Source: Natronobiforma cellulositropha (lineage in GTDB: Archaea; Halobacteriota; Halobacteria; Halobacteriales; Natrialbaceae). From it: 47,933 bases of DNA. The stretch covers positions 1 through 47,933 of the forward strand of contig NZ_JANZXN010000057.1 in the NCBI RefSeq assembly GCF_025629245.1. Reading direction: 5' to 3'. Below the pieces are notes generated by a model. That model was not told where the DNA came from and did not search any database. It worked only from the letters and a program-made list of their open reading frames with translations. Positions within the stretch are counted from its first letter, which is position 1. Each line of letters opens with the position of its first letter. Positions 1 through 14,943 of the stretch are shown here, piece by piece. Made by a program: the position numbers and the translations under genes.

Positions 1-1
1 A

Positions 2-91
2 CTGATCGACGACGCACAGAAGATCCACCAGCAACGGCCAGTGTTACAAGAGACGCTCGCTACCGCTACGCAACCGAGGTGTGAGTCTTAG
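2..91 (+). CDS. C-terminal fragment of an upstream gene (partial)
   Basis: An open frame enters from the left edge and ends at a TAG at 89-91, giving 29 residues that end in ATQPRCES. Third codon positions are mostly G or C early in the frame, as expected of coding sequence here. A second frame (1-84, ending in YATEV) is also open but has poorer third-position GC, so the choice is not secure. The fragment is too short to assign a family. Confidence 0.3.
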   Translation: MIDDAQKIHQQRPVLQETLATATQPRCES

Positions 92-121
92 CTAAAGACG
101 AATAATCCCTAGATTAAAGCG

Positions 122-143
122 GCCCGACTGTCTCGAGTCGGGC
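122..143 (+). other. 8-bp hairpin just upstream of the first complete gene
   Basis: gcccgact (122-129) and agtcgggc (136-143) form a perfect 8-bp stem with a 6-nt loop, ending 3 nt before the ATG at 147. An AT-rich segment (104-119, containing gattaaag) could be the TATA element. The hairpin might end transcription of the gene entering from the left, or mask the start of the next one. The sequence does not decide between these. Confidence 0.4.
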
Positions 144-146
144 TGA

Positions 147-1448
147 ATGCGCCGATCGATCGTCATCGCGGCCGTCGTGCTCACGCTCGCGTTCGTCTTC
201 GTCGGCGGCCCGTCGCTGTTGACCTCGCCGTCGACCAGCGACGTCGCCCCGGAGGAAGAAGAGACGCTGCCCGACGTGGTCTCGTTCGACGACGCAGCGA
301 GTGGCTTCTGGCCCTATTTGAACGCCCGCGAGAGCCACGAGAAACGGAGTCCGATCAACGTGATCGTCCGCGGCGAGACCGACGAGGTGGTCCGCGCCCT
401 CGCGGAGGAGACCGACGGCGAGTGGGACGAACTGGCCGAGGAACACGAGGACGCTGAGCCGGATACCTACGCGTTCCTGGCCGAAGAGCGCCACCACGCC
501 ACCGGCATCGAGTGGGGGGAGGCAGCGGGGACGACCCGCTACGCCTGGGTCGACCCCGGTGGCGACGACGACCCGCGCTGGGTGACCGAGACGCTCCAGC
601 TCGAGGACGGCGACTACTACGGCCAGCGCTATCACATCCGGCTCTACGAGACGCCGAACCCCGACGACCGGTGGGTCGCGATGCAGGGCCACACCGAACA
701 CTTCGACTGGTTCACCTTACGCCACCGCGTCGACGGTGTCGAGGCAGCCCAGTTGCGCATCGAATCCGACTTCATGTCGCTGCCCCAGGTCGACAACCAG
801 ACCAACGTCAGCCGGATCAACCTCGAGAACAGCGGCCCCTCCGACGCCGACGGCTGGGCGACGCTCGTCGACCTGACGGCGCTCGCCGTGATTCCGGCGA
901 CGCTCTCCCTCGCGGCGAGTCGCGGTGTCAGAGGGCGTGTCGAGGACCGCGCCGACGACCACCTGACCGAGGCCGACCGCGCCCGTCTCGCTGCGGCTGC
1001 CGACCGACTCGAGGCCGGCCACCTCGTGCTCGCGGCGACGATCCTGACGCTCTTCCTCGGCGTCCGCGTCGTCGGCGTCGCCTTAGAGCGGGGTGCCGAC
1101 TTCCTGACGATGCACGTGATCGCCGCCATCCTCTACCCGGTGATCACACTGGGGATTCCGATCGCGACCTACCTGATCGCACGCGGTCTCGAGCGGCGGA
1201 TGGACGCGGCGGTCGCGGCCTCGCTCTCGCTCGCGGTGGCCATCTGGATCGACTACGGACTGCTCGGGGTCGACTCGCTGCCGGTCGACGTCGTCGTCCA
1301 GCGGATCCTCGTCGTGGTCGCCCTCGGCCTGATCGCCGGCGGGGCGGCCAAACGTGCTACGCGTGACTCGAGTCTGAACGACATGGTGATCGCGGGGGTC
1401 GTCCTCTGGGCGCTCGTGCTCGTCGGGACGCTCTTCGGCTATCTCTAG
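147..1448 (+). CDS. conserved haloarchaeal multi-pass membrane protein with large N-terminal outer domain
   Basis: The protein has 433 residues and I do not recognise a named family. An N-terminal hydrophobic segment (about residues 3-21) acts as signal anchor. It is followed by an acidic soluble region (about 25-235) rich in Trp, Tyr and His, which includes the phrase SPINVIVRGETDEVVRAL. The C-terminal half carries about six membrane spans, near 237-258, 291-313, 321-345, 355-375, 383-400 and 414-432. The outer domain therefore probably faces the exterior and the rest sits in the membrane. The ATG at 147 gives the signal anchor directly, so the start is plausible. The gene stands alone; the next gene has its own operator. 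Coding is supported by strong GC3 and an acidic composition. Confidence 0.8.
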   Translation: MRRSIVIAAVVLTLAFVFVGGPSLLTSPSTSDVAPEEEETLPDVVSFDDAASGFWPYLNARESHEKRSPINVIVRGETDEVVRALAEETDGEWDELAEEHEDAEPDTYAFLAEERHHATGIEWGEAAGTTRYAWVDPGGDDDPRWVTETLQLEDGDYYGQRYHIRLYETPNPDDRWVAMQGHTEHFDWFTLRHRVDGVEAAQLRIESDFMSLPQVDNQTNVSRINLENSGPSDADGWATLVDLTALAVIPATLSLAASRGVRGRVEDRADDHLTEADRARLAAAADRLEAGHLVLAATILTLFLGVRVVGVALERGADFLTMHVIAAILYPVITLGIPIATYLIARGLERRMDAAVAASLSLAVAIWIDYGLLGVDSLPVDVVVQRILVVVALGLIAGGAAKRATRDSSLNDMVIAGVVLWALVLVGTLFGYL

Positions 1449-1521
1449 CGGCCGGTACGAGCCCCGACAGCACGCAACCCCCCTCGTTCGAACTCGCTGA
1501 CGGACCCGGCGGACGAAGCGT

Positions 1522-1548
1522 TTGTATACATTGAATACGTTGTATACA
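1522..1548 (+). promoter_or_regulatory. operator of three tandem 9-bp repeats in the toxin-antitoxin promoter
   Basis: Three consecutive 9-mers, ttgtataca (1522-1530), ttgaatacg (1531-1539) and ttgtataca (1540-1548), lie end to end and stop 2 nt before the antitoxin ATG at 1551. The outer two also form a perfect inverted repeat, GTATACA (1524-1530) and TGTATAC (1541-1547), with a 10-bp spacer. This geometry suits binding by ribbon-helix-helix or HTH antitoxin dimers and autorepression. The position over the expected TATA/start region is inferred to block transcription. Confidence 0.65.
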
Positions 1549-1550
1549 CT

Positions 1551-1841
1551 ATGGGCACGATCTCGGCGCGCGTTCCGGACGAACTCGAGGACGAACTCGA
1601 GCGCTACCTCGAAGACGAACGACTCGATCGGAGTACTGGCGTCAGAAAGCTCCTCGCGGACGGTCTCGAGTCCTGGCGGCGTGAGCGCGCACTCGAGCGC
1701 TTCACTGCGGGTGAGGTCACACTCACGAAGGCGGCGGCCGTAGCCGGGGTGTCGGTCTGGGAGTTCAGACAGCTCGTCCGCGAGCGAGAGGCCGCCTGGG
1801 TCTCCAGTGCAGACCTCGAGACAGATCTCGAGGACCTCTGA
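1551..1841 (+). CDS. UPF0175-type antitoxin (RHH/HTH DNA-binding protein)
   Basis: A protein of 96 residues. The first half (TISARVPDELEDELERYLED) looks like a ribbon-helix-helix strand-helix unit. The second half (about residues 50-80, FTAGEVTLTKAAAVAGVSVW) matches the helix-turn-helix core typical of UPF0175 proteins, which pair with PIN toxins in archaea. The stop at 1839-1841 is directly followed by the ATG of the PIN gene, so the two are translated from one message. By analogy it should bind and neutralise the PIN toxin and repress its own promoter through the repeats at 1522-1548. The start is well fixed because the ATG lies 2 nt after the operator and the N-terminus begins with the DNA-binding strand. 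Confidence 0.8.
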   Translation: MGTISARVPDELEDELERYLEDERLDRSTGVRKLLADGLESWRRERALERFTAGEVTLTKAAAVAGVSVWEFRQLVREREAAWVSSADLETDLEDL

Positions 1842-2348
1842 ATGTGGGTGTTCGATGCGACACCGCTGATCTATCTGGCGACGGTAGACCGGGTGGGCTA
1901 CGTTCGACAGCTCCGCGGGCGTCGGGTGATTCCCGCCCGCGTCTACGACGAGGTCGTCACCCGCGGACTCGAGGAGGGCTACCCCGATGCGAGACGCCTC
2001 GAGCGGGCCGTCGAGAACAGTGAGTTCGAGGTTCAGACCGTCGAGGAGACGGCGCTCACCGACCGGCTCCAACAGAACCCGACGCTCAGCGATGCAGATA
2101 TTGCGGTGCTCACCTGTGCGGCGACCAAGGACGGAACGGCCGTAATGGACGAAGCCGCTGGCCGGAGCGCGGCCGCGGTCGAGGGGATCGAGACGCGCGC
2201 GACGGCGTACCTCGTCTGTTCACTCGCGAAGCAGGGCAAGATCGAGACGGCTGCGGCACGCGAGACGGTCGACGCGATGGTCGACGCGGGGTGGTACTGT
2301 GCGCCCGATCTCTACGCGAAGATCGTCCGGACGCTCGAGTCACTCTGA
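1842..2348 (+). CDS. PIN-domain ribonuclease toxin (DUF3368-like)
   Basis: A protein of 168 residues starting immediately after the antitoxin stop. The PIN acidic set is visible: D5 (VFDATPLIYL), E37 (VYDEVV), D84 or D86 (TLSDADIAVL) and D103 (VMDEAAGR). These residues hold the catalytic Mg/Mn ions in VapC-like RNases. Length and motifs fit the DUF3368 branch, which is usually encoded downstream of UPF0175. The gene appears intact. The expected role is a growth-modulating endoribonuclease restrained by the upstream antitoxin; its RNA target cannot be read from sequence. A direct repeat tied to the neighbouring island begins only 7 nt after the stop codon. Confidence 0.8.
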   Translation: MWVFDATPLIYLATVDRVGYVRQLRGRRVIPARVYDEVVTRGLEEGYPDARRLERAVENSEFEVQTVEETALTDRLQQNPTLSDADIAVLTCAATKDGTAVMDEAAGRSAAAVEGIETRATAYLVCSLAKQGKIETAAARETVDAMVDAGWYCAPDLYAKIVRTLESL

Positions 2349-2354
2349 CGCGCG

Positions 2355-2384
2355 TCTCACTCGCGGCCGTGTCGCGTCACACAC
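2355..2384. repeat. left 30-bp direct repeat (putative attachment-site copy)
   Basis: This 30-bp segment matches 3830-3859 with 2 mismatches, including an uninterrupted 18-bp run (ccgtgtcgcgtcacacac, 2367-2384). The right copy is the 3' end of herA, coding for its last residues CVTRHGRE plus stop. Read on the minus strand this left copy spells the same CVTRHGRE-stop. Similarity ends at the repeat edges. Outer arms ccgtgt/acacgg (2367-2372 and 2379-2386 region) give a small dyad. The arrangement resembles the duplicated gene 3' end left by site-specific integration. Confidence 0.55.
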
Positions 2385-2445
2385 GGCGAATCAAACGCGC
2401 CGTGATTCCAAAAAGATTTCAGCCCGGAAGAACGATCCGGCGGAT

Positions 2446-2658
2446 ATGGTCCTCTCAACGAATTCGATATGGGACGAAGTCGCAGGAGATATCTCGGATA
2501 AATTGGTGATCGAGTACGAAGATGCGACTGTTTACGGCGATTTTGAACAGGAGCAGACACTTCACCGAGGCAAGGTTCGTATTCTCCCAAATGGTTGGGT
2601 TGCATTGCCTACTGACCGGCTACTGTCTCCCGAAGCAGTACACCATATCGATCCGTAG
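2446..2658 (+). CDS. hypothetical protein, 70 aa, inside the short island
   Basis: The ATG at 2446 opens a 70-residue frame (VLSTNSIWDEVAGDISDK near the start, ending SPEAVHHIDP). The frame upstream of this ATG is low-quality sequence running back into the direct repeat, so 2446 is preferred. Base composition is clearly lower in GC than the flanking genes. The pattern of short beta-strand-like stretches (KLVIEYEDATVYGDF, KVRILPNGWVALP) suggests a small beta-rich protein. No family is recognised. It is the first gene inside the interval framed by the 30-bp repeats. Confidence 0.5.
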   Translation: MVLSTNSIWDEVAGDISDKLVIEYEDATVYGDFEQEQTLHRGKVRILPNGWVALPTDRLLSPEAVHHIDP

Positions 2659-2888
2659 AGCCTCCGAGTCGATTGGACGAGTACCGCGGACCGGCCCGAG
2701 CAACTCGCCACTCCATCTCTCGTGGAGCGGTTTTCGGGTGAGAGATGGCGAGGTGTGTTCCGATCAGTCTACCTGCATATTGTGCACTGTAGTGGATGGT
2801 TCGATTTGGGAAATTCGAGAGAGACTTTGAGGAAGCGATGGGTGCATGAATCAACCATGGTACAATCATGCTGGGTTCATGACCAAGT

Positions 2889-2895
2889 CTTTAAG
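2889..2895 (+). promoter_or_regulatory. TATA element of the 2922 gene
   Basis: ctttaag is centred about 30 nt before the ATG at 2922, the spacing expected for a leaderless haloarchaeal transcript. It argues for that ATG over an earlier GTG at 2895 that overlaps the element. Confidence 0.45.
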
Positions 2896-2921
2896 TGATT
2901 ACAGCCCAAATAATCGACCAG

Positions 2922-3290
2922 ATGGCGAAATACAAGACACTCTGGGAGGCTGAGATTGAATCGACACACAAGGAAGCAGATGACTCTGGAAAGATGATTC
3001 AAGTGCTTGTGCGTACAGATGATAAACCTCATATCTCTATCAGAGATGCTTACAAAGGACCAGCAGGGAACTTCCTGAATAATCCTCCAACATACAACCC
3101 TGATGAAGAGGTCGAAGAGGAACTAATCGAGATTCTTCCTCAGGCTTTCAGGAAGGGTCGGATCTACAAGGAGGCTTTGAAGCAGTTCCAAGACTGTGAC
3201 GAGATTAGCGATGAACGGGCGATAGGGCTCCTTGACCTTATAGATGAATACGATGACATAACACAAATACTTGAACTGGTCGAGGCCTGA
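2922..3290 (+). CDS. hypothetical acidic protein with low-GC codon use
   Basis: The protein has 122 residues and begins MAKYKTLWEAEIEST. It is acidic and probably mostly helical in the second half (DEEVEEELIEILPQAFRKG onward), with no membrane segment or signal. Its codons use many A/T third positions, unlike the surrounding GC3-rich genes, which suggests recent transfer. I recognise no family. It may be cargo of the element framed by the 30-bp repeats. With only one other small gene there and no visible integrase, a function cannot be inferred. Confidence 0.65.
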   Translation: MAKYKTLWEAEIESTHKEADDSGKMIQVLVRTDDKPHISIRDAYKGPAGNFLNNPPTYNPDEEVEEELIEILPQAFRKGRIYKEALKQFQDCDEISDERAIGLLDLIDEYDDITQILELVEA

Positions 3291-3829
3291 AAGCGGTGTC
3301 CAGTGCCTAAAGTCACCTGCGTATTGCGCTGAAGATAGCAACCAGCGCTGAATCTACACTCTATATTCAGTAGGTTGTTTCTGAGCCTATCGGAGAGGTC
3401 GATAGCTGCTCCGGTAACGCCTTCGCCTGCGTTGTCCGCTACGAACCACCTGCGAACTGTGGTCCCCCACAATCGCAGCTCGCAGTTTTCGACGGCCGCG
3501 ATGCTCAACCCACTGGCCGTGGCGCGTGCTGGCGGCACGCCCGAGCATTGCGAGGGTGTGCCGACGACGCTGCGCGAGGGGCGAGTGAGCGACCAGCGGG
3601 AGCGAACGAGTCGGCTGGGGAGGGTGAGGCTGCGGTGGGTGGGACTTCGGAAGGGGCCGGGCGCTCGAGGGGCGTCGCGACGTGAGAACCGGAGCGAAGC
3701 GAGGACCGCAACGAGCGAGGTCCCTCGAGCGTCCGGGGGCTTCCGGCAGCAGTGTTCGCGACGACCGAACCGGCCGCAACACCGCTCAGGGACACACGGT
3801 CAGGCAGCGGTATGGGAACAAACTGACCC
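3291..3829. other. gene-free segment: purine-rich intergenic sequence inside the island
   Basis: No frame here has believable protein features; the open frames are Arg/Pro/Ser-rich products of GC skew. From about 3540 to 3740 the plus strand is strongly purine-rich, with tandem gagcga/gagcgaacgag-like words and a ggtgggtgggacttcggaa stretch (about 3634-3655). From memory similar stretches recur between genes in many haloarchaea. It could be a decayed repeat element; I see no inverted termini. Confidence 0.4.
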
Positions 3830-3859
3830 TCTCACTCCCGACCGTGTCGCGTCACACAC
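3830..3859. repeat. right 30-bp direct repeat at the herA 3' end
   Basis: This is the partner of 2355-2384 (28 of 30 identical). It contains the herA stop codon (3832-3834) and the codons for CVTRHGRE. Because it lies inside a conserved gene end, it is more likely the original sequence and the left copy the duplicate. The interval between repeat starts is 1,475 bp. Confidence 0.55.
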
Positions 3860-5721
3860 TGCGGGAGACCGATCAACTCGACGGGTTCTGAGTTGTCCGG
3901 CGAGTAGACGACCATCTGGCCTTTCTCCATGTAGGGGACTTTCGACTCGAGCGTCCGCGGGATGTTGACGCTCTTGATGGCGTCCTCGTCACCGAGGTTG
4001 AGGACGACCGTGGTGTTGATCTGTTTGAAGACGGGGTCGGCGATGTCCTGGGGGTCCTGGGTGATGAGAAACAGCCCGAGGCGCTCTTTCCGGCCCTGTT
4101 TCGCCGCGTCGGTGAACGTCGAGATGACCTTCCCGGCCTGGACGCTCTCGGCGTCAGCGAGGAAGTTGTGTGCCTCGTCCATCCCCAGGATGAGCGGCGT
4201 CTCCTTGATCCGGTCGTAGTCCGGGTCGTTCGAGAGTTTCTGGTCGATCAGCAGACTCGAGAGTGCGAGGACGACCGTCTCGGTCGCCCGGGTGTCGCTG
4301 ACGTGGTAGGTGGGGACGACGCTGAGACCGCCGGGGCGGACGAACGAATCGATGAGGTCGGTGATCGGCCGGGCGTCCTGGTCGAAGACGTGGCCGAAGC
4401 CGAGCGCCCGGCGGCGGACGGCGTCGAAGGTCGCCTCGTGGACGCGGCCGGACTCGTCGAGTTCCTCGCGGAGGGCGGGATCGTCGAGGAACGCCCGGAA
4501 CTCCTCGTAGGTGCCGCTCGAGCCGTACTGGCGGCGGAATCGCGGCAGGAGGACGCTCACCAGCGCGCCGTACTGGTTGTCGTTCAGGCCGCTGCCCGCG
4601 ACGAGCCACGGGTCGTCGTGGACCATCGAGAAGGGGATGGTGAACTCGAGACACTCCGCGCGGTGGTGGCTCGCCGCGTAGGTGGCGTCGCCGACTTTCG
4701 GGACGAACACCGTCGTCTCCTCGTGGCCGCCGTAGGCGATACCCTCGCGCTCGAGGCGGCGGGCGAACTCGCCGTCGAGGTCGGGGTTGTCGTCGTGCAT
4801 CTGGGCGTACTCGTCCTGGGGGTCGAACTGGACGACGGCGGGGGTCACCGTCCGGCCGTCGCTCATCGGGTAGCGCCGGTCGTCGCTCAGGTACTGCCGG
4901 AGGACGTTCTTCGCCGCGTGGGTCTTCCCGGAGCCGGTCCCGCCCGCGATCAGGGTGTGGCGAAACACCAGCGGGTCGCCCGCCTCGTAGTCGTCTTTGA
5001 CCCGGTAGTCGATCGTCGGCGGCGAGGCGGCCGTCCGCACCTTCTCGCCACCGACCGAGAGGTGCCCCAGGAAGACGCCCTCGTCGGGAATCTTGAGTCC
5101 GGTCTTGATCTCGTCGGTCTCGCTCGCCTGGCGGATAATCGTCCGGGGTTTGGGCACTCGGTCGGTCATCCGCCGCTTGAGGTCGTCGCCGTCCTCGTAG
5201 AGCACCGCCACCGGCTCGAGTTCGGCGACGAACTTGTAGTCGGTCTCGTCGCGCTCGTCGAAGCCGCTCGAGCGCATCGCCCGGCGGGCGTGGATCTCGG
5301 TTGCGTCGTCGGCGTGGTACTGCTGGGCGTACTCGAGGGCGGTGACGCGACAGAACAGCATCTCTCCGCGGGCGCGCCCGGCGGGCGTCGCCTCGTCGGG
5401 ATACGGCGCGAGCAGGTAGGTGCCGAGGCGCACCTCCGACCGGTGCTCCCGCGTCACGTAGGCGCGAAGCGCCGTCTCCTCGCCGTCTTCGCTCACGCGC
5501 AGCCCCTGTGAGACACAGAGCGCGCCGATGCCCACGTCCGTCCCCTGTGGCTCGACGCGCGTCGTCTCGAAGCCGTCGTCGCTCGCGTCCGTACTCGAGG
5601 CGCTCGCGTCGGCCGACGAGGTGCTCGCCTCCGCCGACGGCTCGCTCGAGGCGTCGGTGTCGGTGGTCTCGTCACCGCCATCGTCGGCGGAGAAGGTGCT
5701 GAAATCTCCCAGATCGGTCAT
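3832..5721 (-). CDS. herA: HerA-type DNA translocase/helicase
   Basis: A protein of 629 residues from the ATG at 5721; an in-frame ATG 18 codons upstream would add a non-conserved leader. HerA is a hexameric ATP-driven DNA pump that works with the NurA nuclease to resect double-strand breaks for recombination. Residues about 11-50 are a Ser/Asp/Ala-rich acidic linker. A beta-barrel-like region (about 60-235) follows. The ATPase core has Walker A GGTGSGKT (260-267), a Walker B strand LILGMDEAH (about 511-519) and a C-terminal segment LFLITQDPQDIADPVF typical of the family. The nurA gene lies 0.47 kb upstream on the same strand, separated by an oppositely oriented gene. The last codons form part of the 30-bp direct repeat. 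Confidence 0.9.
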   Translation of the reverse strand: MTDLGDFSTFSADDGGDETTDTDASSEPSAEASTSSADASASSTDASDDGFETTRVEPQGTDVGIGALCVSQGLRVSEDGEETALRAYVTREHRSEVRLGTYLLAPYPDEATPAGRARGEMLFCRVTALEYAQQYHADDATEIHARRAMRSSGFDERDETDYKFVAELEPVAVLYEDGDDLKRRMTDRVPKPRTIIRQASETDEIKTGLKIPDEGVFLGHLSVGGEKVRTAASPPTIDYRVKDDYEAGDPLVFRHTLIAGGTGSGKTHAAKNVLRQYLSDDRRYPMSDGRTVTPAVVQFDPQDEYAQMHDDNPDLDGEFARRLEREGIAYGGHEETTVFVPKVGDATYAASHHRAECLEFTIPFSMVHDDPWLVAGSGLNDNQYGALVSVLLPRFRRQYGSSGTYEEFRAFLDDPALREELDESGRVHEATFDAVRRRALGFGHVFDQDARPITDLIDSFVRPGGLSVVPTYHVSDTRATETVVLALSSLLIDQKLSNDPDYDRIKETPLILGMDEAHNFLADAESVQAGKVISTFTDAAKQGRKERLGLFLITQDPQDIADPVFKQINTTVVLNLGDEDAIKSVNIPRTLESKVPYMEKGQMVVYSPDNSEPVELIGLPQCVTRHGRE

Positions 5722-5819
5722 ACACACGTTATCCCAGTCGACCCACAAACCCGTTTCCCCTCGAGTACCCGGCAACGCCCCTCCACTGACCTTTTCCCTC
5801 TCCGGCCCGTACTGTAACT

Positions 5820-6176
5820 ATGCTCTTCGTACGCGGTCGCGCGAGAGGGACGGAGTTGACCGGCACGCTGTACGAACGAGGCGAGCGCGCCCCGACGTTC
5901 CGGGGCGCACCCGACGAGGACGCCGCCTACGTCTGGGTCTGTGACGAGTTCTACGAAGTCGACAGCGGTGGCTCGGTCCAGCGCCTCGACGACCGCGAGG
6001 TCCGGCTGGCCTTCGAGTCGCCGATGCCCCGGGGCTTCGACACCAAGACGCAGGCGCTCGAGGCCGCCGAGGATCACGTCCGGACGCAGTTCGCCCGCAT
6101 CGGCATCGGCTCGTCGGCGGTCGACATCGAGGTGGAGTCGGCCGACCACGACGCGGCAGTCGACTTGCCGAGCTAG
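5820..6176 (+). CDS. conserved haloarchaeal protein between herA and nurA
   Basis: A protein of 118 residues, beginning MLFVRGRARGTELTGTLYER. It contains alternating beta-strands, an aromatic patch AYVWVCDEFYEVD (about residues 36-48) and an acidic C-terminal half. No signal or membrane span is present. I believe it corresponds to a haloarchaeal domain of unknown function (DUF7113-like, from memory). It is transcribed opposite to herA and nurA, starting 98 nt from the herA ATG, so it shares a divergent promoter region with herA. Its stop lies 12 nt from the nurA stop. Placement inside the herA-nurA pair hints at a DNA-end-processing link, but that is association only. Confidence 0.75.
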   Translation: MLFVRGRARGTELTGTLYERGERAPTFRGAPDEDAAYVWVCDEFYEVDSGGSVQRLDDREVRLAFESPMPRGFDTKTQALEAAEDHVRTQFARIGIGSSAVDIEVESADHDAAVDLPS

Positions 6177-6188
6177 GCTCTCGAGCGA

Positions 6189-7466
6189 CTAGAAGCCCTC
6201 TTCGCCCCAGCGGTGGTCGTCGTAGGTGCGGCGCTCGGTGGTGTCGAAGCGCTCCTCGAGCGTCCGGCGGAGCGAGGCCTTCTCCGCGGCGCTGATCCGG
6301 GCGAGTTCGTCGGCCTTGGCGACGATCGTCGGTGGGCCGTGGGCGACGGCGACCTCCTGCAGGAGCTGCCGGGTGAGCGCCTCGCGCGTCTCCTCCTCGC
6401 GCGTGAACGCGTAGGGGGCTTCGATCCGGTAACAGAGGTCGTCGCGCGGGTCGTAGAGGACGAAGAAGGTGACCTCGTAGGCCTCGAGCGGGAGACGGCG
6501 CTCGACACCCAGTGCGTCGCCGTCGACCGAGAGCGGGCGGTCGACGCCGCCACGCGAGCGGAACCAGCCGGTGTAGGTCAGCGCGTCGGTCTCGCGCTCC
6601 CAGCGGGTCCCCTCCACGTCGTCGACGTACTCGCCACACTCGAGGATGCGCGTGAAGAAGGCCGAATCGTCGCCCCAGGGGGTTTCGATGCCCGCCTCCC
6701 GTTTCGCCTTGAGCGTCCGACAGAGGACGCGCGTCGCCGGATTCTTCACGAAGCCGACGAGCGGGACCTCCCGCTCGACGAACGTCTCGACGAGGCGGAC
6801 GTAGTTCTCGAGGACGGTCGTCGGCCGGGGGTCCTCGAGGAGGAAGTTCTCGAGGTCGGGGTGCTGGTCGGCCCACCGGAGCAGGCCGCGCGGGTAGAGC
6901 GGGCCGTCGAGGACGAGGAGGTCGCGCACGTCTTCGGCGTGGGCGAGGGCGTGTTCGCTCTCGGCGAGGTAGAGTGCGAGTGCGTGGACGACGCCCTCGG
7001 CGAAGCGTGGCAGCGGCGGCACCTTCACGACGCGCGAGCGACTGTAGCCCTCGTCGAAGCGGTCCCACTGGTCGTGGACGGTCATCGTCTCGTCGTTCGA
7101 GTGGGCCGTCGCCACCACCGTCCGCCCGCGGTGTACGTCCAGGTCGCTCGGGGTGGCGCTCATCGCCGCCTGCGCGATGTCGATCACCAGGCCGTTCTTG
7201 AACGTCGTCGGGTTGATCGTCCCCGCGTCGAGGCCGTGGCAGGTCGGAAACGGTGGCTCACAGAGGGCGATACTCTCGAGGTCGACCCGGTGGCGCGAGA
7301 CCGTCTCGACCGGCTCGAGGACTACCCGTCCGTCGTGGCTCAGCGGGTCGAGAAAGCGCTCCCAGACGGTTTCGGCGAACGCCCGGTGGTCGCGTTCGTC
7401 GACGCCGTGGTCGATCCGTCCCGCGAGTCGCGCGATGCCGTCGAAGTGAACCGGATCGAGTGTCAT
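6189..7466 (-). CDS. nurA: NurA 5'-3' nuclease, HerA partner
   Basis: A protein of 425 residues from the ATG at 7466 (MTLDPVHFDGIARLAGRIDH). NurA is a Mn-dependent nuclease that degrades 5' strands while held on the HerA hexamer. The NurA domain is recognisable: the metal-binding Asp in HGLDAGT (D80), a helix with acidic residues ALYLAESEHAL (about 163-173), the second Asp in LLVLDGPLYP (D187), and a late PPTIVAKADELARIS motif. The length is normal for haloarchaeal NurA. In many archaea herA and nurA flank mre11-rad50; neither of those genes is present here. A longer frame reaching 7523 is rejected because it adds a basic, unconserved leader. Confidence 0.85.
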   Translation of the reverse strand: MTLDPVHFDGIARLAGRIDHGVDERDHRAFAETVWERFLDPLSHDGRVVLEPVETVSRHRVDLESIALCEPPFPTCHGLDAGTINPTTFKNGLVIDIAQAAMSATPSDLDVHRGRTVVATAHSNDETMTVHDQWDRFDEGYSRSRVVKVPPLPRFAEGVVHALALYLAESEHALAHAEDVRDLLVLDGPLYPRGLLRWADQHPDLENFLLEDPRPTTVLENYVRLVETFVEREVPLVGFVKNPATRVLCRTLKAKREAGIETPWGDDSAFFTRILECGEYVDDVEGTRWERETDALTYTGWFRSRGGVDRPLSVDGDALGVERRLPLEAYEVTFFVLYDPRDDLCYRIEAPYAFTREEETREALTRQLLQEVAVAHGPPTIVAKADELARISAAEKASLRRTLEERFDTTERRTYDDHRWGEEGF

Positions 7467-7586
7467 ACCGGTTCTCACAGAGGGCACCGAGAAAAATCGT
7501 GGTGGTTCTCGCCCTCGTCTCACCGTGCGAACGATCGATCACGTTCGAACCAATGGTATGACGCGTCTCGGGCACCCAGCGGAACC

Positions 7587-7855
7587 ATGCTCGAACGCGA
7601 CGACGTCTCGATTCGAGACGAGATTCCGGGGTGGGTCGAGCTCGACTTCTCCGTCGTCCTGGTGCGCTCCGGGTTTCGATCCTGGGCTCGACGTTGAGCC
7701 GCCGGTTCTCCTCGACGCACGCGACGGTGCCCGAAGTGTTCGGCTTCGGCGCGATCGAACCGGTCGGTACGCTCGCGTTGATCGCACTCGGCCTCGCACT
7801 GATCGCCCTCGGCTGCTGGCGAGTCTACTTGTTTCGGCGATTGCGAGCGGCGTGA
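7587..7855 (+). pseudogene. small membrane protein gene apparently broken by a frameshift
   Basis: The ATG at 7587 starts a convincing acidic N-terminus (MLERDDVSIRDEIPGWVELD...) that stops early at 7697 after 36 residues. A second frame, open from about 7631 to 7855, supplies a C-terminus with one strong membrane span (VGTLALIALGLALIALGCW) and a basic tail (RVYLFRRLRAA). Joining the two by a one- or two-base shift between about 7660 and 7690 would give a protein of roughly 85-90 residues with one span. It could also be two tiny overlapping genes or a sequencing error. No function is recognised. Confidence 0.4.
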
Positions 7856-8049
7856 TCGACACAGCAGACGGCGGTTTTCAGTTCACGACCGACTCAACTC
7901 GACCGTCGCACCGCCCCATCGGTCTTCATCACGGCGACACCGATCCACGAAGTTCTTCGAGCCCCCGCTGGTACGTCTGCAACGTCGCGTCGGACTCGTC
8001 TCCAGGTCCAGCTCGACAGAATTGCTGGCCGGTGTACCCCCAACTCGGT

Positions 8050-8667
8050 TCAGTCTTCCCGTTCCCAGCGGAGAAATACGGCGATCAGGTGATCGTCGTA
8101 CTCGATACACGGGATCGTTCCACCCGTCACGTCTCCCGCCCCGCTTGCCGCCGTTGCGGTGCGTACCATCGACCGCGGAAGGTCGCCGCGAACGCCGCCG
8201 TCGTCCTCGTAGAGTGATTTGTACGCGGCGGCGGCTTCCTCGCCGTCGGACGAGTCCGGACTGACGGTGGCGGCGATCCGTTCTTCTTCGATTTCTCCTC
8301 CGTAGTACCAGCTATCTGGTGGATGTTCCTCAAGGTCGTCGAACGCCTCCTGGAACAACCGAACGCCGTCGATGCGCTCATCCTCCCGCGAAAGGCTGCC
8401 GTCACACTCGGTTTCTTCGGGGTCGGCGAGGTAGAAGATTAGGTCCAGGTATTCAGTGTACTGGTCGTCATCCTCGCCTGCATCGTCGCTCGGGTCGTAA
8501 ACAGAGTCGTCATCGTCGGTGCCATCGTTGCCATTCACTTCGGTATCATCGCCGCCATTCATCTCGGTGTCTTCGTCTGTCGACCCTGAATCGTCGTCGA
8601 GACAGCCCGCGAGGGCGGCGAGCGGGAGGGCGAGCATTGATCGACGAGATTGGGGATGGGGGTCCAT
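8050..8667 (-). CDS. Tat-exported acidic lipoprotein of unknown function
   Basis: Starting at the ATG at 8667 the protein has 205 residues. It opens with a twin-arginine signal (QSRRSMLALPLAALAGC) ending in a lipobox whose Cys (residue 22) would be lipidated, so it should be anchored outside the membrane. The signal is followed by a low-complexity Asp/Gly/Asn/Thr linker (about 23-70), the usual spacer of haloarchaeal lipoproteins, then a soluble domain (about 75-205). That domain includes EEAAAAYKSLYEDDG and a conserved-looking C-terminal strand LIAVFLRWERED. Two earlier ATGs (8691 and 8706) would lengthen the signal; 8667 gives the standard signal length. The domain family is not recognised. 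Confidence 0.75.
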   Translation of the reverse strand: MDPHPQSRRSMLALPLAALAGCLDDDSGSTDEDTEMNGGDDTEVNGNDGTDDDDSVYDPSDDAGEDDDQYTEYLDLIFYLADPEETECDGSLSREDERIDGVRLFQEAFDDLEEHPPDSWYYGGEIEEERIAATVSPDSSDGEEAAAAYKSLYEDDGGVRGDLPRSMVRTATAASGAGDVTGGTIPCIEYDDHLIAVFLRWERED

Positions 8668-9059
8668 ATTTTCAAGATTTAAATCCTGCATGATAAGGCT
8701 TCTCATTCTAACACCCGGGGCAGTTTGGCGACAGTTCGTGTATCATTTTCTTACTTTCGGGTAAGGGAACTAACTCGACAATCACCACCCGACATGTTGT
8801 CCTGATGGGCGGTGCCGAATCCGATCGCTGGAAACGCGATGGTCATATTCGACAGTGTAGGGGGACAGTCAAAACCGTTCCCTGAACCACGATCCTGTTG
8901 ACGACATGTCACACGATCGGATAGTGAGGCACTCCCGACACTCGAGCGGGACGCAGCACGCGAGGGGGGTGACGACGAATCTACGGGACACGAGTCGTGG
9001 CGTCGCCCCCGGGTTCTCGATCGACGCCGCCATCCGTCGTCGGCCAATCGCCGCTCGAC
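8668..9059. other. gene-free segment
   Basis: This 392-bp region separates the start of the lipoprotein gene from the end of the hydrolase gene, both on the minus strand. It should hold the lipoprotein promoter (AT-rich sequence at about 8680-8700). The frames present (for example 8906-9076 plus) are Arg/Ser-rich with no conserved look. I see no repeat or RNA structure. Confidence 0.4.
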
Positions 9060-9710
9060 TCACGCACCCGGCGTGAGCCACTCGAGTGCCTCGTCGGTCT
9101 CCATCACCGAGACGCCGATTCCCTCGAGTTCCTCGAGGCCGCGCTCGTAGGTCCCGGAGGTGGCGTCGGCGACGAAGACGACCCGGTAGTCGCGCTTGCT
9201 CGCCTCGTAGACGGTCGTCCGCGGACAGTTCGGGAAGTTACAGCCGCAGACGACGAGCGTGTCGACGCCGAGGGCGTCGAGGTGGCTCTCGAGCGGCGTC
9301 TCGTAGAACGCCCCCCAGCGCGGTTTGTACAGCGCCCACTCGAGCGGGCCGAGTTCGTCGAGGTCGCCCGCGAGCAGCGCGTCGGCGTCGAGGTCGCTCG
9401 CACCCTCGGGGCGGAGTTCGTCGACCAGTTCGCTGCCCGTCGAGCCGGGACGGGCGATCGCCGCGCCGTCTTCGATGGCCGCGCGCCGACAGGCGTCGAC
9501 GTTCGAGCCGTCGGGGCGGTAGAGCCTGACGACGTGGACGATGGGGCGCTCGAGCGCGCGCAAGCGCTCGAGGAGACGGGCGATGTCGGGCACCACCGCC
9601 GCGGTTCCGGGAATCTCGGCGGGGGCACCCGGTAGCGAGAAGTCCCGCTGGGTGTCGATCGTCAGGAGGGCGGCGCGCTCCGGGTTCGGCCGCGTGTACT
9701 CGTTCATCAC
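9060..9710 (-). CDS. cysteine hydrolase, isochorismatase family
   Basis: A protein of 216 residues; the start could also be the second Met at 9707. The isochorismatase-like catalytic triad is visible: Asp in LLTIDTQRDFSLPG (D19), Lys in ALYKPRWGAFYETPL (about K129) and the nucleophile in VVCGCNFPNCPRTTVYEA (Cys at about 155-161). The family hydrolyses amides or esters such as nicotinamide, N-carbamoylsarcosine and isochorismate. The unusual CGCNFPNC spacing does not by itself give the substrate. A nicotinamidase role would fit with the nad genes 10 kb away, but nothing links them. It is divergent from gpmI with an 87-bp shared promoter region. Confidence 0.85.
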   Translation of the reverse strand: MMNEYTRPNPERAALLTIDTQRDFSLPGAPAEIPGTAAVVPDIARLLERLRALERPIVHVVRLYRPDGSNVDACRRAAIEDGAAIARPGSTGSELVDELRPEGASDLDADALLAGDLDELGPLEWALYKPRWGAFYETPLESHLDALGVDTLVVCGCNFPNCPRTTVYEASKRDYRVVFVADATSGTYERGLEELEGIGVSVMETDEALEWLTPGA

Positions 9711-9797
9711 GAAATACGTCAGCGAGAAACAACGTGCGCGTTTCGGTTTCGCACCCGTAACGACAGCTAATTAGGCGATCCGACCGACCCGTCGGAC

Positions 9798-11330
9798 ATG
9801 GAGGGTGCACTCATTATTCTCGACGGCTGGGGTCTCGGTGACGAGTCCGCAGGCGACGAGGCGGGACGGAACGCGATCGAAGCGGCGCACACCCCGGTGT
9901 TCGATCGGCTCTCGAGGACGGGCGCGGCAGGCCGACTCGAGGTCGCGGGTCGACGTGTCGGGTTGCCCGACGGCCAGATGGGCAACAGCGAGGTCGGCCA
10001 CCTCAACATCGGGGCTGGCCGCGTCGTCCTCCAGGAGTACACCCGGATCTCCGACTCGGTCGCAGACGGGAGCTTCCGTGAGAACGCCGCCTTCGACGCG
10101 GCCTTCGAGTACGCCCGCGAGAACGGCGGCCGGGTCCACTTCCTGGGCCTGGTCAGTGACGGCGGCGTCCACGCCGACCACGAACACCTCCACGCACTGA
10201 TCAGACTCGCCGCCGACCGCGAGGTCGAGGCGGTCACCCACGCCTTCACCGACGGCCGGGACACCTCGCCGACCGGGGGTCGCGAGTATCTCGCCACGCT
10301 CGAGTCGGTCGTCGAGGAGGCGGGGACGGGCGACGTCGCGACGGTCATCGGCCGCTACGACGCGATGGACCGCGACCAGAACTGGGAGCGGACGGGCAAG
10401 GCCTACGACGCCATCGTCGACCGCGAGGCCGAGTACACCGCGCCGTCGGCGCTCGAGGCGGTCGAGGCGGCGTACGACCGCGGCGAGACCGACGAGTTCG
10501 TCGAGCCGACGCTGATCGAGGGTGCGCCGGCGCTCACGGCTGGTGACGCCGTCATCTGGTTCAACTACCGCTCGGATCGCGCCCGACAGCTCACCCGGAT
10601 GCTCGCGAACATCCGCCCGGAGTGGCAGCCAGCGCGGACGCCGCCGGCCGTCGAGGTCGTCACGCTCACCGAGTACGACGAGACCTTCGACCTGCCTATC
10701 GCCTACCCGCCGAGCCGGCCCACCCAGGTGCTCGGAGAGGTGCTCGCCGACGCGGGCAAGACGCAGTTGCGCATCGCCGAGTCCGAGAAGTACCCCCACG
10801 TCACCTACTTCTTCAACGGCGGCGACGAGGTCGCCTTCGAGGGCGAGCGTCGCGAAATCGTCGAGAGTCCCGACGTTCCGACCTACGACCGCAAACCGGA
10901 GATGAGCGCGCCCGGTGTCACCGACGCGGCCATCGCCGCCATCGACGGCGAGGAGTCGCCCGACGTGCTCGTCCTCAACTACGCCAACCCGGACATGGTC
11001 GGCCACACCGGCGACTACCGCGCGACCGTCGAAGCCGTCGAAGCCGTCGATACGCAACTCGGCCGCCTCCTCGAGACGCTCGAGACCCGCGGCGCACACG
11101 TCTTCGTCACCGCAGACCACGGCAACGCCGACGACATGGGGACCGACGAGGACCCGCACACGGCTCACACCTACGCCGACGTGCCGTTCGTCTACGTCGC
11201 CCCCGACGGCACCGACGGCGGGAAGGGAGTCCGCGAGGGCGGCACGCTCGCCGACATCGCGCCGACGGTGCTCGAGTGTCTCGGTCTGAGGGGACCACCC
11301 GAGATGACCGGTGAGAATCTGCTCGAGTGA
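9798..11330 (+). CDS. gpmI: 2,3-bisphosphoglycerate-independent phosphoglycerate mutase
   Basis: A protein of 510 residues, normal for the monomeric two-domain enzyme that interconverts 3- and 2-phosphoglycerate in glycolysis and gluconeogenesis. It is cytoplasmic and Mn-dependent. Visible motifs are the metal-binding N-terminus ALIILDGWGLG (D9), the phosphoserine nucleophile S64 in GQMGNSEVGHLNIGAG, the transferase-domain segment FLGLVSDGGVHADHEH, ALTDGRDTSP-like FTDGRDTSP, and the C-terminal metal site VTADHGNADDM. The ATG at 9798 lies about 25 nt after an attaatta-like AT-rich patch (9767-9776), consistent with a leaderless message. The gene is intact. Confidence 0.97.
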   Translation: MEGALIILDGWGLGDESAGDEAGRNAIEAAHTPVFDRLSRTGAAGRLEVAGRRVGLPDGQMGNSEVGHLNIGAGRVVLQEYTRISDSVADGSFRENAAFDAAFEYARENGGRVHFLGLVSDGGVHADHEHLHALIRLAADREVEAVTHAFTDGRDTSPTGGREYLATLESVVEEAGTGDVATVIGRYDAMDRDQNWERTGKAYDAIVDREAEYTAPSALEAVEAAYDRGETDEFVEPTLIEGAPALTAGDAVIWFNYRSDRARQLTRMLANIRPEWQPARTPPAVEVVTLTEYDETFDLPIAYPPSRPTQVLGEVLADAGKTQLRIAESEKYPHVTYFFNGGDEVAFEGERREIVESPDVPTYDRKPEMSAPGVTDAAIAAIDGEESPDVLVLNYANPDMVGHTGDYRATVEAVEAVDTQLGRLLETLETRGAHVFVTADHGNADDMGTDEDPHTAHTYADVPFVYVAPDGTDGGKGVREGGTLADIAPTVLECLGLRGPPEMTGENLLE

Positions 11331-11383
11331 CCTGCTCGTGCTGACCCGATTGGTATATGTCGCCGGAGTCTGAACCACGACAC

Positions 11384-11560
11384 ATGGAACAGGACTCGAG
11401 CTCCAACGAATCGCTCATGGCCGGTGACGACGCCGATTTCGTCGGCGAGGTCGTCAAGATCATGCTCATCTGGATGGTCGTCGTCGTCATCGCAGGTATC
11501 GCTCTCATCATCCTGCGCGAGCCGTTCACGGGGCTGTTCTCGCTCGCCGGACTCTTCTAG
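11384..11560 (+). CDS. small single-span membrane protein
   Basis: From the ATG at 11384 (MEQDSSSNESLMAG) the protein has 58 residues: an acidic N-terminus, then one strong hydrophobic span (about residues 28-47, IMLIWMVVVVIAGIALIILR) and a short hydrophobic tail FTGLFSLAGLF. An in-frame ATG at 11357 would add nine residues. Similar short membrane proteins occur widely in haloarchaea without known function. It lies 53 nt after gpmI and converges with the Nudix gene. Confidence 0.6.
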   Translation: MEQDSSSNESLMAGDDADFVGEVVKIMLIWMVVVVIAGIALIILREPFTGLFSLAGLF

Positions 11561-11577
11561 GCCGGACTCGGGCGTGG

Positions 11578-12054
11578 TTATCGCCCGTCTCGAGCCGCGG
11601 CTATCGCCTCGAGACCGAAACTGACGACGTCGCGCTCGAGGTCCTGCTCGCGGAGGTCGGCCGCCGAGTACCACCGCCAGGCGTCGACGCTCGCCTCGTC
11701 TGCGGGCGGTGCAATCTCCCTGCTCGGGACGGTCGCGTAGTAGATGTGGTCGACGTGCTGGTGGGCGACTCGGCCGTCGTGGACGTCGACGTCGTAGAGC
11801 ATCTGGTGTCTCGGCTGTGGGAGCCGTCGTCCGGTCTCGGTCTCGACGGCGGGTGTCTCGCCCGGAGAGAGGAGCGTCGCCTCGAGACCGGTCTCCTCAC
11901 GACACTCGCGGACGGCGGCTTCGTGGGGGAGTTCATCCCGGTCGATGTGGCCGCCCGGCGGGACGGTGATGCCGAGACGGTCGTGTTCGTGGAGTGCGGT
12001 CGCCCCGTCGTTGACGACGTAGATGGTGGCGGTGAAGTGTCGCGTCGTCTCCAT
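11578..12054 (-). CDS. Nudix hydrolase
   Basis: A protein of 158 residues. The Nudix box (GX5EX7REUXEEXGU) is complete, running from GGHIDRDE through REETGLEA (about residues 34-57), so the Mg-binding Glu residues are in place. The family cleaves nucleoside diphosphates linked to another moiety. Substrate (for example an NDP-sugar, oxidised nucleotide or ADP-ribose) cannot be told from the box. The rest of the fold follows with QMLYDVDVHDG strands and a C-terminal RWYSAADLREQDLE segment. It is divergent from metY (97 bp between starts) and appears intact. Confidence 0.9.
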   Translation of the reverse strand: METTRHFTATIYVVNDGATALHEHDRLGITVPPGGHIDRDELPHEAAVRECREETGLEATLLSPGETPAVETETGRRLPQPRHQMLYDVDVHDGRVAHQHVDHIYYATVPSREIAPPADEASVDAWRWYSAADLREQDLERDVVSFGLEAIAAARDGR

Positions 12055-12151
12055 ACGCTGGGTCGCCGCGACGGTACTATCAGTCTCCCGATCCGGCCCT
12101 GTCGATTGCCTTCGGGTGCACTTTTACAAGCCCTCGAGTGCGTGTAGCCTC

Positions 12152-13441
12152 ATGGCAGAGGATCCAACTGACCACCGATTCGCGACGCGGAGCGTCCACG
12201 CCGGCCAGGACCCCGACGAGTCGACAAACGCGCGCGCACCACCGATCTATCAGACGACCTCCTACGTCTTCGACGACACCGAACACGCCGCGAACCTGTT
12301 CGGTCTCCAGGAGTTCGGCAACATCTACTCGCGGATCATGAACCCGACGAACGCGATGCTCGAGGCACGCCTCGCGAGTCTCGAGGGTGGCGTCGGGGCG
12401 CTCGCGACCGCTTCGGGGATGGCGGCGTTCGACCTGGCGACGTTCATTCTCGCGGACGTCGGCGACAACATCGTCTCGGCCTCGTCGCTCTACGGCGGGA
12501 CCTACACCTACCTCACTCACACCGTCGAGAAACGCGGCGTCACGACCCGCTTCGTCGACACGCTCGACTACGACGCCTACGCCGACGCGATCGACGACGA
12601 CACCGCGTTCGTCCACTTAGAGACGATCGGCAATCCCGCGCTCGTCACCCCCGACATCGAGCGCATCGCCGACATCGCCCACGAACACGACACCCCGCTG
12701 TTCGTCGACAACACGTTCGCGACGCCGTATCTGTGCCGGCCGATCGAACACGGCGCGGACCTGGTCTGGAACTCGACGACGAAGTGGATCCACGGCGCTG
12801 GCTCGACCGTCGGCGGGGTTCTCGTCGACGGCGGCACCTTCCCCTGGGACGAGGGCGACTACCCCGAACTCACGGAGCCGAACCCGGCCTACCACGGCGT
12901 GAACTTCTACGAGACCTTCGGCGAGATGGCATTCTCGGTCGTCGCACGCACCCGCGGCCTGCGCGACCTCGGCAACCAGCAGTCGCCGTTCGACGCCTGG
13001 GTCACGCTCCAGAAACTCGAGAGCCTGCCCCTGCGGATGGAGAAACACTGCGAGAACGCGCTGGCGGTCGCGGAGTACCTCGAGGATAGTTCGGCGGTCT
13101 CGTGGGTGAACTACCCCGGACTCGAGAGCCACGAGACCCACGAGATGGCGACGAAGTACCTCGACGGCGGCTACGGCGGCATCATCACGTTCGGACTCGA
13201 GGGCGGCTACGACGCCGCAGAGACGGTCTGTAACGGCGTCGAACTGACGAGCATGCTCGCGAACGTCGGCGACGCGAAGACGCTCATCATCCATCCGGCG
13301 AGTACGACCCACCAGCAGCTCACCGAGGAGGAACAGCTCGCCAGCGGCGTCACACCCGAACTGATCCGCCTCTCGATCGGTATCGAGGACGTCGACGACG
13401 TGATCGAGGATCTGGACCGGGCGATCGGCGCGCTGGGCTGA
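12152..13441 (+). CDS. metY: O-acetylhomoserine aminocarboxypropyltransferase (sulfhydrylase)
   Basis: A protein of 429 residues in the PLP-dependent Cys/Met metabolism family. It is expected to make homocysteine from O-acetylhomoserine and sulfide for methionine synthesis. The N-terminus RFATRSVHAGQDPD is the family signature. The PLP lysine is K211 in LVWNSTTKWIHGAGSTVGG. SSLYGGTYTY (about 111-120) holds the cofactor-stacking Tyr. The C-terminus HPASTTHQQLTEEE...RLSIGIEDVDD is diagnostic. MetY-type length (about 430) separates it from shorter cystathionine synthases. The ATG at 12152 follows an acttttacaag element (about 12119-12129) at the right distance; the frame extending upstream to 12023 is not coding. 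Confidence 0.93.
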   Translation: MAEDPTDHRFATRSVHAGQDPDESTNARAPPIYQTTSYVFDDTEHAANLFGLQEFGNIYSRIMNPTNAMLEARLASLEGGVGALATASGMAAFDLATFILADVGDNIVSASSLYGGTYTYLTHTVEKRGVTTRFVDTLDYDAYADAIDDDTAFVHLETIGNPALVTPDIERIADIAHEHDTPLFVDNTFATPYLCRPIEHGADLVWNSTTKWIHGAGSTVGGVLVDGGTFPWDEGDYPELTEPNPAYHGVNFYETFGEMAFSVVARTRGLRDLGNQQSPFDAWVTLQKLESLPLRMEKHCENALAVAEYLEDSSAVSWVNYPGLESHETHEMATKYLDGGYGGIITFGLEGGYDAAETVCNGVELTSMLANVGDAKTLIIHPASTTHQQLTEEEQLASGVTPELIRLSIGIEDVDDVIEDLDRAIGALG

Positions 13442-13486
13442 CTCGAGCGGGAGTTCGTACCCCCTGTCAATCCCGCTGGTAGGCCG

Positions 13487-14338
13487 TCACTCCCCGCCGG
13501 TGAGCGATTCCCCTTCCCAGTACCGTGCCTCGACGGTTCCATCCTCGTCGATGCGTACTTCGACACCCCGACACACTGCAGAGAGCGTGAACGACGCCGT
13601 CCGGTCTCCGGCCACGTCGATTCGCACCGTGAACCTGCCCCCGGCTTCGAGCACACCGTCGATGCGCGCACGCTCGCCAGCGCCGACTTCGAGGGTTCGG
13701 TCGGCCGTCTCGCCGTGACAGTCGTCGACGACCTCGACCGCGACCGTCCGTGCGAGACCGTCGTTCGAGAGGAACAGCACCGTGTCGTCGCCCGCGTAAC
13801 AGTCGTACTGTGTATCCCCGATGCCACCGTCGGGTTCGACGTATCCGATCGCGAGTCCTTCGGGGAGAATCGCGAGTCCGTGGCGGTAACACGACGGGCC
13901 GTCCCAGGAGGCGGTGGTGGACTCGCCGTCGATGGTCACGGTTGCGGTGTGCGTCTCGTTTCCGTCGAGTACGTTCGACTCGAGGCGTCGCTCCTGTGCT
14001 GAGAGCCGATACGACCGCTCGAGGACTGTCGAGCCACTCGAGGTGGTGACCGTAACGGCTGCGTCGACCGGGCCGTCCCGTTCGTTCTCGACGGCGAGTG
14101 CCGTCGTCGCCCCGTCGAAACAGGGGTCGCGACTGTGTCTTCCTCGTTCGCGACTCAGCAACGCCGAGAGGGGGTACGCCGCGGGCCCACAGCCGTCGTC
14201 GAGCGGCGGCGTCTCGAGGTCCTCGAGCGGGACGAGCCGTCCGTCGCCCCCACGCCTCGAATCCACCAGGTTCAGACACCCTGCAAGAGGGACACTCACA
14301 CCCGCTGCGGACGCCTGCAGGAGTGATCGTCGCTTCAT
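13487..14338 (-). CDS. Tat-exported lipoprotein of unknown function
   Basis: A protein of 283 residues. The start MKRRSLLQASAAGVSVPLAGC is a twin-arginine lipoprotein signal with lipobox Cys at about residue 21, so the protein is exported folded and lipid-anchored on the outer face. The mature part has two immunoglobulin-like or beta-sandwich-looking halves: TTALAVENERDGPVDAAVTV (about 80-100) and TVLFLSNDGLARTVAVEVVD (about 185-205). Each half describes a strand-rich domain. Several Cys residues (for example in GPSCYRHG and TQYDCYAGDD) may form disulfides. No enzyme motif or known family was recognised. The gene stands alone, convergent with metY. Confidence 0.8.
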   Translation of the reverse strand: MKRRSLLQASAAGVSVPLAGCLNLVDSRRGGDGRLVPLEDLETPPLDDGCGPAAYPLSALLSRERGRHSRDPCFDGATTALAVENERDGPVDAAVTVTTSSGSTVLERSYRLSAQERRLESNVLDGNETHTATVTIDGESTTASWDGPSCYRHGLAILPEGLAIGYVEPDGGIGDTQYDCYAGDDTVLFLSNDGLARTVAVEVVDDCHGETADRTLEVGAGERARIDGVLEAGGRFTVRIDVAGDRTASFTLSAVCRGVEVRIDEDGTVEARYWEGESLTGGE

Positions 14339-14541
14339 AGAAACAACTCAGGACTCTCACAGATAAGTGTTGGTCGGTGTATTGACCAGTCCCACGTATT
14401 CGGGTGTGGAGGGCGCCACTCCGAGGAACTGACACATCCGCTGAGCCGCGACGGTCCCTCGGGTGCGCCGTCGTAGTCCGTACGTGTATTGTCTTTCCCA
14501 GCCTCGGCCAGTACCAGGACGGACGCCGGCGTCAGCGGTCT

Positions 14542-14889
14542 TCAGGCCGACGCCATCTCCCGGCAGGACTCGACGCACTTCGGGAGGACTTCGGCACACT
14601 CCTGGCAGTGGGCGTGGTCGTGGTTCGCACACTCGTCTGCACACTCCTCGCAGGCGTCGGCGCAGATGGCCGCGAGGTCGTCGCTGTAGGCCGAGTTCCG
14701 GGCCATAAAGCGGGCGTGCAGCGCCGTCAGATCCGCGACGTCCCGACAGAGGCGGATACAGCGCGCCATCTCCCCGCCTTCCTCCGCGCAGGCGTCCGCA
14801 CACCACTCACAGACCTGGGCGGCCTCGAGACAGTTGTCGATACACTCCTGCATCTGGTCGTCGGCGTGTTGGAGCGATTGCAGCGCCAT
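14542..14889 (-). CDS. Cys-rich four-helix-bundle copper-binding protein (Csp/DUF326-like)
   Basis: From the ATG at 14889 (MALQSLQHADDQMQECIDNC) the protein has 115 residues with 15 Cys arranged at helical spacings: CIDNC, CEWCADAC, CIRLC, CADACEECADEC, CQECAEVLPKC, CVESC. This matches the DUF326/Csp copper-storage family, in which Cys residues line the core of a four-helix bundle and hold many Cu(I) ions. No signal is seen, so it is probably cytosolic. His residues (HDHAHC) near the third helix could be an entry site. Copper binding is a family-based inference. The upstream in-frame ATG at 14922 would add an unlikely hydrophobic leader. Confidence 0.85.
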   Translation of the reverse strand: MALQSLQHADDQMQECIDNCLEAAQVCEWCADACAEEGGEMARCIRLCRDVADLTALHARFMARNSAYSDDLAAICADACEECADECANHDHAHCQECAEVLPKCVESCREMASA

Positions 14890-14943
14890 AACAGGCCAGA
14901 CTGCGCTCACGAGCGCAATCAACCCGTGGCGTTCGTGTGCAAG

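Follow-up and report, generated by a model that had tools for sequence, protein, structure and literature searches.

Integration of mobile DNA at the 3' ends of protein-coding genes, with the reading frame restored, has been described in archaea for 14 of 68 thaumarchaeal elements (PMC6563490), and BJ1 constitutes a further case (PMC8371274). The locus examined here is similar: direct repeats mark the end of a protein-coding gene, the frame is restored, and relatives have empty sites. It differs from such att-type elements in its target gene, herA, which is new, and in its cargo: att-type elements typically carry an integrase, whereas the inserts at herA are 1 to 3 kb in length, lack an integrase, and carry toxin-antitoxin pairs or unknown genes. 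The open literature searched, the coverage of which is incomplete, yielded no paper on herA as an integration target. As no recombinase was found in the window, its insert is not classed as an integrase element, though the outcome looks alike.

Casposons in the elongation factor 2 gene (PMC6563490) are similar in returning to the 3' end of one protein gene and in having flanking direct repeats; however, neither a Cas1-like gene nor terminal inverted repeats were detected in the herA insert, and the herA repeats vary in length and contain the gene tail. A casposon was rejected on these grounds (no Cas1 ORF in the 1.4-kb insert and no inverted repeats at its ends), as was an insertion sequence or MITE, given the lack of terminal inverted repeats and of dispersed whole-unit copies. 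With respect to cargo, the genes inserted at herA in two further genomes (G001 and G016) and the pair neighboring the insert in the window are ordinary members of the HepT-MntA (HEPN-nucleotidyltransferase) and PIN/UPF0175 modules (PMC2701414, PMC3710099). Integron gene cassettes are comparable only in how they work, as small gene units apparently exchanged through recombination in a repeat behind genes; a tyrosine recombinase search found no IntI in the window, and the herA repeat consists of host coding sequence, the 3' end of a gene. We know of no toxin-antitoxin modules framed by copies of a host-gene tail.

The window, the whole stretch of 47,933 nucleotides analyzed here, is the entire contig C53 of a Natrialbaceae genome of 3.76 Mb (G000), and its relevant features are collected in Table 1. 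Two direct repeats, 1,475 bp apart, are identical at 31 of 34 bp. An earlier note on this DNA had described 30-bp repeats (2355-2384 and 3830-3859) matching at 28 of 30 positions around an exact 18-bp core, CCGTGTCGCGTCACACAC; this description held, and the similarity was found to extend further. Its assignment of the right repeat to the 3' end and stop codon of herA was also correct. Both copies read CVTRHGRE-stop on the minus strand, with frame and stop retained in the left copy. The two mismatches within the last coding codons are both synonymous, as read from the sequence. Among repeat pairs of this size no more than 5 kb apart in the window, this one ranks at the top, and the best 34-mer pair within 5 kb reached 25 to 27 matches in 20 third-order Markov copies of the window, versus 31 observed, confirming that the repeat pair exceeds chance. 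When up to three mismatches were allowed, the core was found in its own genome at two exact places, which are the two repeats, and at four sites with three mismatches; the general genomic repeat that the earlier note had weighed against integration is therefore not what is seen. No RNA families were detected in positions 1 to 12000 of the window, and no tRNA genes in the window as a whole.

Table 1. Features of the herA junction in the window
Feature	Position	Strand	Remarks
LssY_C-like membrane protein gene, ancestral convergent neighbor of herA	147..1448	+	convergence in 12 family genomes
UPF0175 antitoxin-like (1551-1841) and DUF3368 PIN toxin-like (1842-2348) pair	1551..2348	+	Pfam PF03683, PF11848
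Distal (stranded) repeat copy	2355..2388	-	CVTRHGRE-stop, stop at 2357-2359; matches herA-end profile positions 67-100
Inserted DNA, 1,441 bp	2389..3829		54.6% GC versus 65.4% in the window; missing from G020 and G010
ORF1, 70 aa	2446..2658	+	widespread haloarchaeal family, no named domain
ORF2, 122 aa	2922..3290	+	ATG at 2922 likelier start than GTG at 2895
GC-rich dispersed repeat with long hairpin (3648-3678/3715-3745)	3509..3760		many copies in Natrialbaceae, not herA specific
Proximal repeat copy	3830..3863	-	final herA codons, stop, and 2 nt
HerA/DUF87-type ATPase gene, 628 aa, target; 3' end at 3832	3832..5718	-	Pfam PF01935/PF05872

A herA orthologue is present in 123 of 125 family genomes, and in the 12 where it converges on the LssY_C-like gene, the gap between the two ranges from 53 nt to 3.7 kb. 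The comparison of herA loci proposed in the earlier note yielded near-empty sites in two family members outside the genus of the window, with gaps of 53 nt (G020) and approximately 70 nt (G010). The insert is absent from both, and in none of the relatives compared is the interval found as shared ancestral sequence. The gap in the window spans 2.4 kb and contains, from herA outwards, the insert, the distal herA tail, and the UPF0175/PIN pair, followed by the LssY_C-like gene. This layering suggests that the toxin-antitoxin pair, the stop codon of which lies 8 nt from that of the distal herA copy, arrived first and the repeat-flanked insert second; the pair outside the distal copy thus apparently represents an earlier gain at the same junction. 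In 34 other family genomes, PIN homologues occur at loci elsewhere, and the pair was absent downstream of herA in the other genomes compared. No third, decayed herA-end copy was found beyond the pair. Duplication of gene ends as a general habit of PIN/UPF0175 modules was considered and discarded, being unseen in 19 loci apart from one weak 27/30 pair.

Eight of 10 occupied herA-LssY sites are without any repeat, indicating that other routes also bring DNA into this junction. The differing genes gained with no visible repeat in G131 to G135, G046, G024, and G139 point to a general insertion hotspot; in G131 to G135, the gain is an FAD oxidoreductase-like gene (named by eye). At another locus (L003, G003:C133), tandem units of approximately 38 nt resembling the herA end (CCGCCACGGCCGGGACTGATCGGGGACGGTCGATGG) lie right behind the herA stop, giving the impression of a multiplied gene end.

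The contents of the insert are a patchwork. GC content is 49% in ORF1, 46% in ORF2, and 71% in positions 3509 to 3829, such that the earlier label of a lower-GC island suits both ORFs and their surroundings but not the latter portion, which includes the dispersed haloarchaeal repeat as one part of the patchwork. The many Natrialbaceae copies of this repeat are diverged, and one lies at the start of contig C50 of the same genome, suggesting that such repeats perhaps cause contig breaks. The two genes had been called orphans. This does not apply to ORF1, which has relatives in 71 of 125 family genomes and an 81% identical protein encoded on the second replicon of G015/G079; ORF2 has two relatives, both distant, and no homologues in viral contigs, plasmids, or phages. 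On the G015 replicon, next to the ORF1 relative, TGCTGAATACAGCGCGCG-type repeats (L002, 695-722, 1067-1094, and 1426-1453) are spaced at intervals of approximately 360 to 370 nt between short open frames. The structure model of ORF2 is a low-confidence beta-beta-beta-helix (pLDDT 66), which together with the sequence pattern may, by eye, resemble a PC4-like single-strand DNA-binding fold. Neither terminal inverted repeats at the ends of the insert nor a transposase within it were found, and elsewhere only parts of it (the ORF1 gene and the 3509-3760 repeat) have matches, with no second copy of the whole. With no integrase, terminal inverted repeats, or second copy found, and with patchwork contents, there is little to mark the 1.5-kb interval as the defined tiny element that had been suggested.

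Second copies of the herA end were sought by three approaches. When approximately 15 kb beyond herA was examined in 100 family genomes, together with earlier loci, the genome's own herA end was repeated only in G001 and G016, the window aside, and reversed and inverted controls gave no match in 1.49 Mb. A degenerate motif, with one mismatch allowed and covering those herA ends that fit it, was found in 173 of 391 whole Halobacteria genomes and occurred twice only in G000, G001, and G016, where the two matches are adjacent and on the same strand; the reversed motif had zero matches in the same genomes. Finally, a profile of the last 100 nt of herA was run over approximately 140 downstream regions and returned exactly three second copies reaching the true herA end (positions 9 to 100 in G001, 55 to 100 in G016, and 67 to 100 in the window), with none from reversed sequence. 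The window copy is weak in the profile search alone (E = 0.3) and is supported by the direct comparison and the Markov test. These distal copies measure approximately 92, 46, and 34 nt, respectively, with right ends 0 to 6 nt beyond the stop codon and variable left edges. The inserts of G001 (1.1 kb) and G016 (2.9 kb) both lie directly 3' of the herA stop, with the same anatomy as in the window. In a sample of 181 loci with 2,134 gene instances, covering the herA neighborhood only, the window herA alone had its last 30 nt repeated, with up to six mismatches, at a downstream distance of over 100 bp but under 5 kb. Sequence comparison thus supports the view that the junction was used independently in at least two lineages besides that of the window, and in three separate lineages the herA 3' end has the look of a docking site for small inserts without an integrase. 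Together, the near-empty sites and the two independent occupied sites support the earlier reading of insertion at a protein-gene 3' end with the frame kept.

The G001 insert carries a HepT-like RNase (PF01934) and a nucleotidyltransferase partner (PF18765/PF01909) on the strand opposite herA. A homologous pair, with the HepT gene interrupted by further DNA, occupies the herA strand in G016. Close relatives of these pairs elsewhere are flanked by unrelated genes, and in L231/L232, similarity runs from approximately 40 nt before the first gene to near the stop of the second, leaving the pair without visible mobile ends. At other HepT-MntA loci, flanking repeats of 29 to 30 of 30 positions were present in 4 of 18, compared to 11 of 400 random segments. 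Three of the four adjoin one multicopy gene, the fourth being a duplicated gene that looks ribbon-helix-helix-like by eye, so that this excess is supporting rather than decisive. None of the models proposed below accounts for the appearance of HepT-MntA behind herA twice in opposite orientations.

Differences between the two tails bear on which of them is native. In G016, the proximal and distal tails have 36 of 46 nt in common, and each matches the herA of another species at 41 to 42. The distal copy carries the family-majority base at positions -28 and -4, where the resident herA has a rare one, and it has decayed at conserved codons. This pattern fits an imported tail on the resident herA, with the native tail left on the distal side; the support for import is indirect and comes from G016. 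In G001, the tails are identical at 87 of 88 nt, a single difference with which import and local duplication of the resident sequence look the same. The earlier proposal that the gene end was rebuilt from incoming DNA is therefore favored by G016, the 30 bp of the window with their three differences being too little to decide.

Overall, we consider that the interval was probably acquired through recombination at the end of herA. The simplest incoming molecule would be a circle or tandem bearing its own copy of the herA 3' end, and a single crossover in the common segment would have placed the new DNA directly 3' of the stop codon. The resident herA would acquire the imported tail and remain intact, and the old tail would be left at the far side of the insert (2355-2388). 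The same junction would have served elsewhere for HepT-MntA cargo and, earlier in the window lineage, for the PIN/UPF0175 pair. As the earlier note had observed, there is no recognizable integrase between the repeats: PF00589 tyrosine recombinases were not matched in the window, in any of the three inserts, or near herA in G001 and G016, where the nearest matches are tens to hundreds of kb away, and Pfam recombinase domains were absent from the insert ORFs. The herA end was also absent from plasmid, phage, and IMG/VR records, which accordingly hold no attP or free attachment site; two IMG/VR matches to the motif, in cyanophage-like contigs, were dismissed as chance. The recombination likely took place in the shared gene tail, through an integrase acting in trans, an integrase since lost, or homologous recombination.

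Of these agents, we slightly prefer a site-specific recombinase, whether lost or supplied in trans, to plain homologous recombination. The latter would involve a circularized or concatemeric haloarchaeal fragment with a chance herA 3' end, inserted by a single crossover of the Campbell type and with no dedicated element; its chance of being right is appreciable though well short of even, and overlaps with that of recombinational gain at herA, of which it is one mechanistic version. It would explain why no recombinase was found and why the left edges of the distal copies vary (34 to 92 nt), and repeat lengths of 34, 46, and approximately 92 nt are unlike one fixed att core. Homologous toxin-antitoxin cargo at one gene in two lineages fits a homology-driven spread, but the opposite orientations of the pairs would be unexpected from it. 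Moreover, a random process should affect many genes, and the sampled loci show herA only. Efficient homologous recombination is poorly served by 34 bp, which is short for such exchange. In its favor, mating and homologous recombination are means by which haloarchaea pass DNA to one another (PMC12814878, PMC5496957).

Two other explanations were weighed. The interval could be what remains, after decay, of a larger provirus or plasmid with an integrase gene, which used herA as attB and eroded to 1.5 kb, as the patchwork insert and the thaumarchaeal precedents (14 of 68 elements, PMC6563490) would allow. We regard this as unlikely, as no larger integrase-bearing occupant of herA with a flanking copy was encountered in family genomes to 15 kb downstream or with the motif in 391 genomes, nor any attP among viral or plasmid records. 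Alternatively, DNA may have been ligated at a staggered break in the end of herA, with fill-in doubling 34 to 92 bp of resident sequence. The near identity of the G001 copies (87/88) and the right ends of the distal copies, all 0 to 6 nt past the stop codon, agree with such a long target-site duplication, yet 10 of 46 positions differ between the G016 copies, each of which is nearer to the herA of another species, the duplicated length varies threefold, and the window insert has no terminal inverted repeats or transposase, all of which render this origin quite improbable.

An arrangement similar in form was observed in three arrays (L275, G131:C1:2350000-2367000, 7420-15113; L276, G134, 5934-9126; L277, G019, 4024-14660). 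In each, a multicopy coiled-coil gene is followed by toxin-antitoxin modules set between diverged copies of the 3' end of that gene plus approximately 184 nt. The modules, several named by eye, comprise MntA-HepT, nucleotidyltransferase-HEPN, DUF433, PIN, AbiE-like, and VapBC types. The right edge of the repeats is constant and the left variable, and a DUF433-like module found in two genomes retains one and the same repeat edge. The coiled-coil family is found in 89 of 125 genomes in up to 14 copies, and arrays of a multicopy family may have a cause of their own. It is a doubtful, rather speculative extension that haloarchaea exchange small integrase-free cassettes, mostly toxin-antitoxin, whose sole mobility signal would be a trailing host-gene 3' end, with herA as a single-slot site and the arrays as many-slot sites.

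The recombinational gain of DNA behind herA would make the end of this conserved DNA-repair-type helicase gene a chromosomal docking site that served on at least three occasions with no visible integrase. If the mechanism is true, the duplicated gene tail would be a simple signature by which to find more such inserts, and toxin-antitoxin and orphan genes would have a testable route of entry into haloarchaeal chromosomes that leaves genes unbroken.
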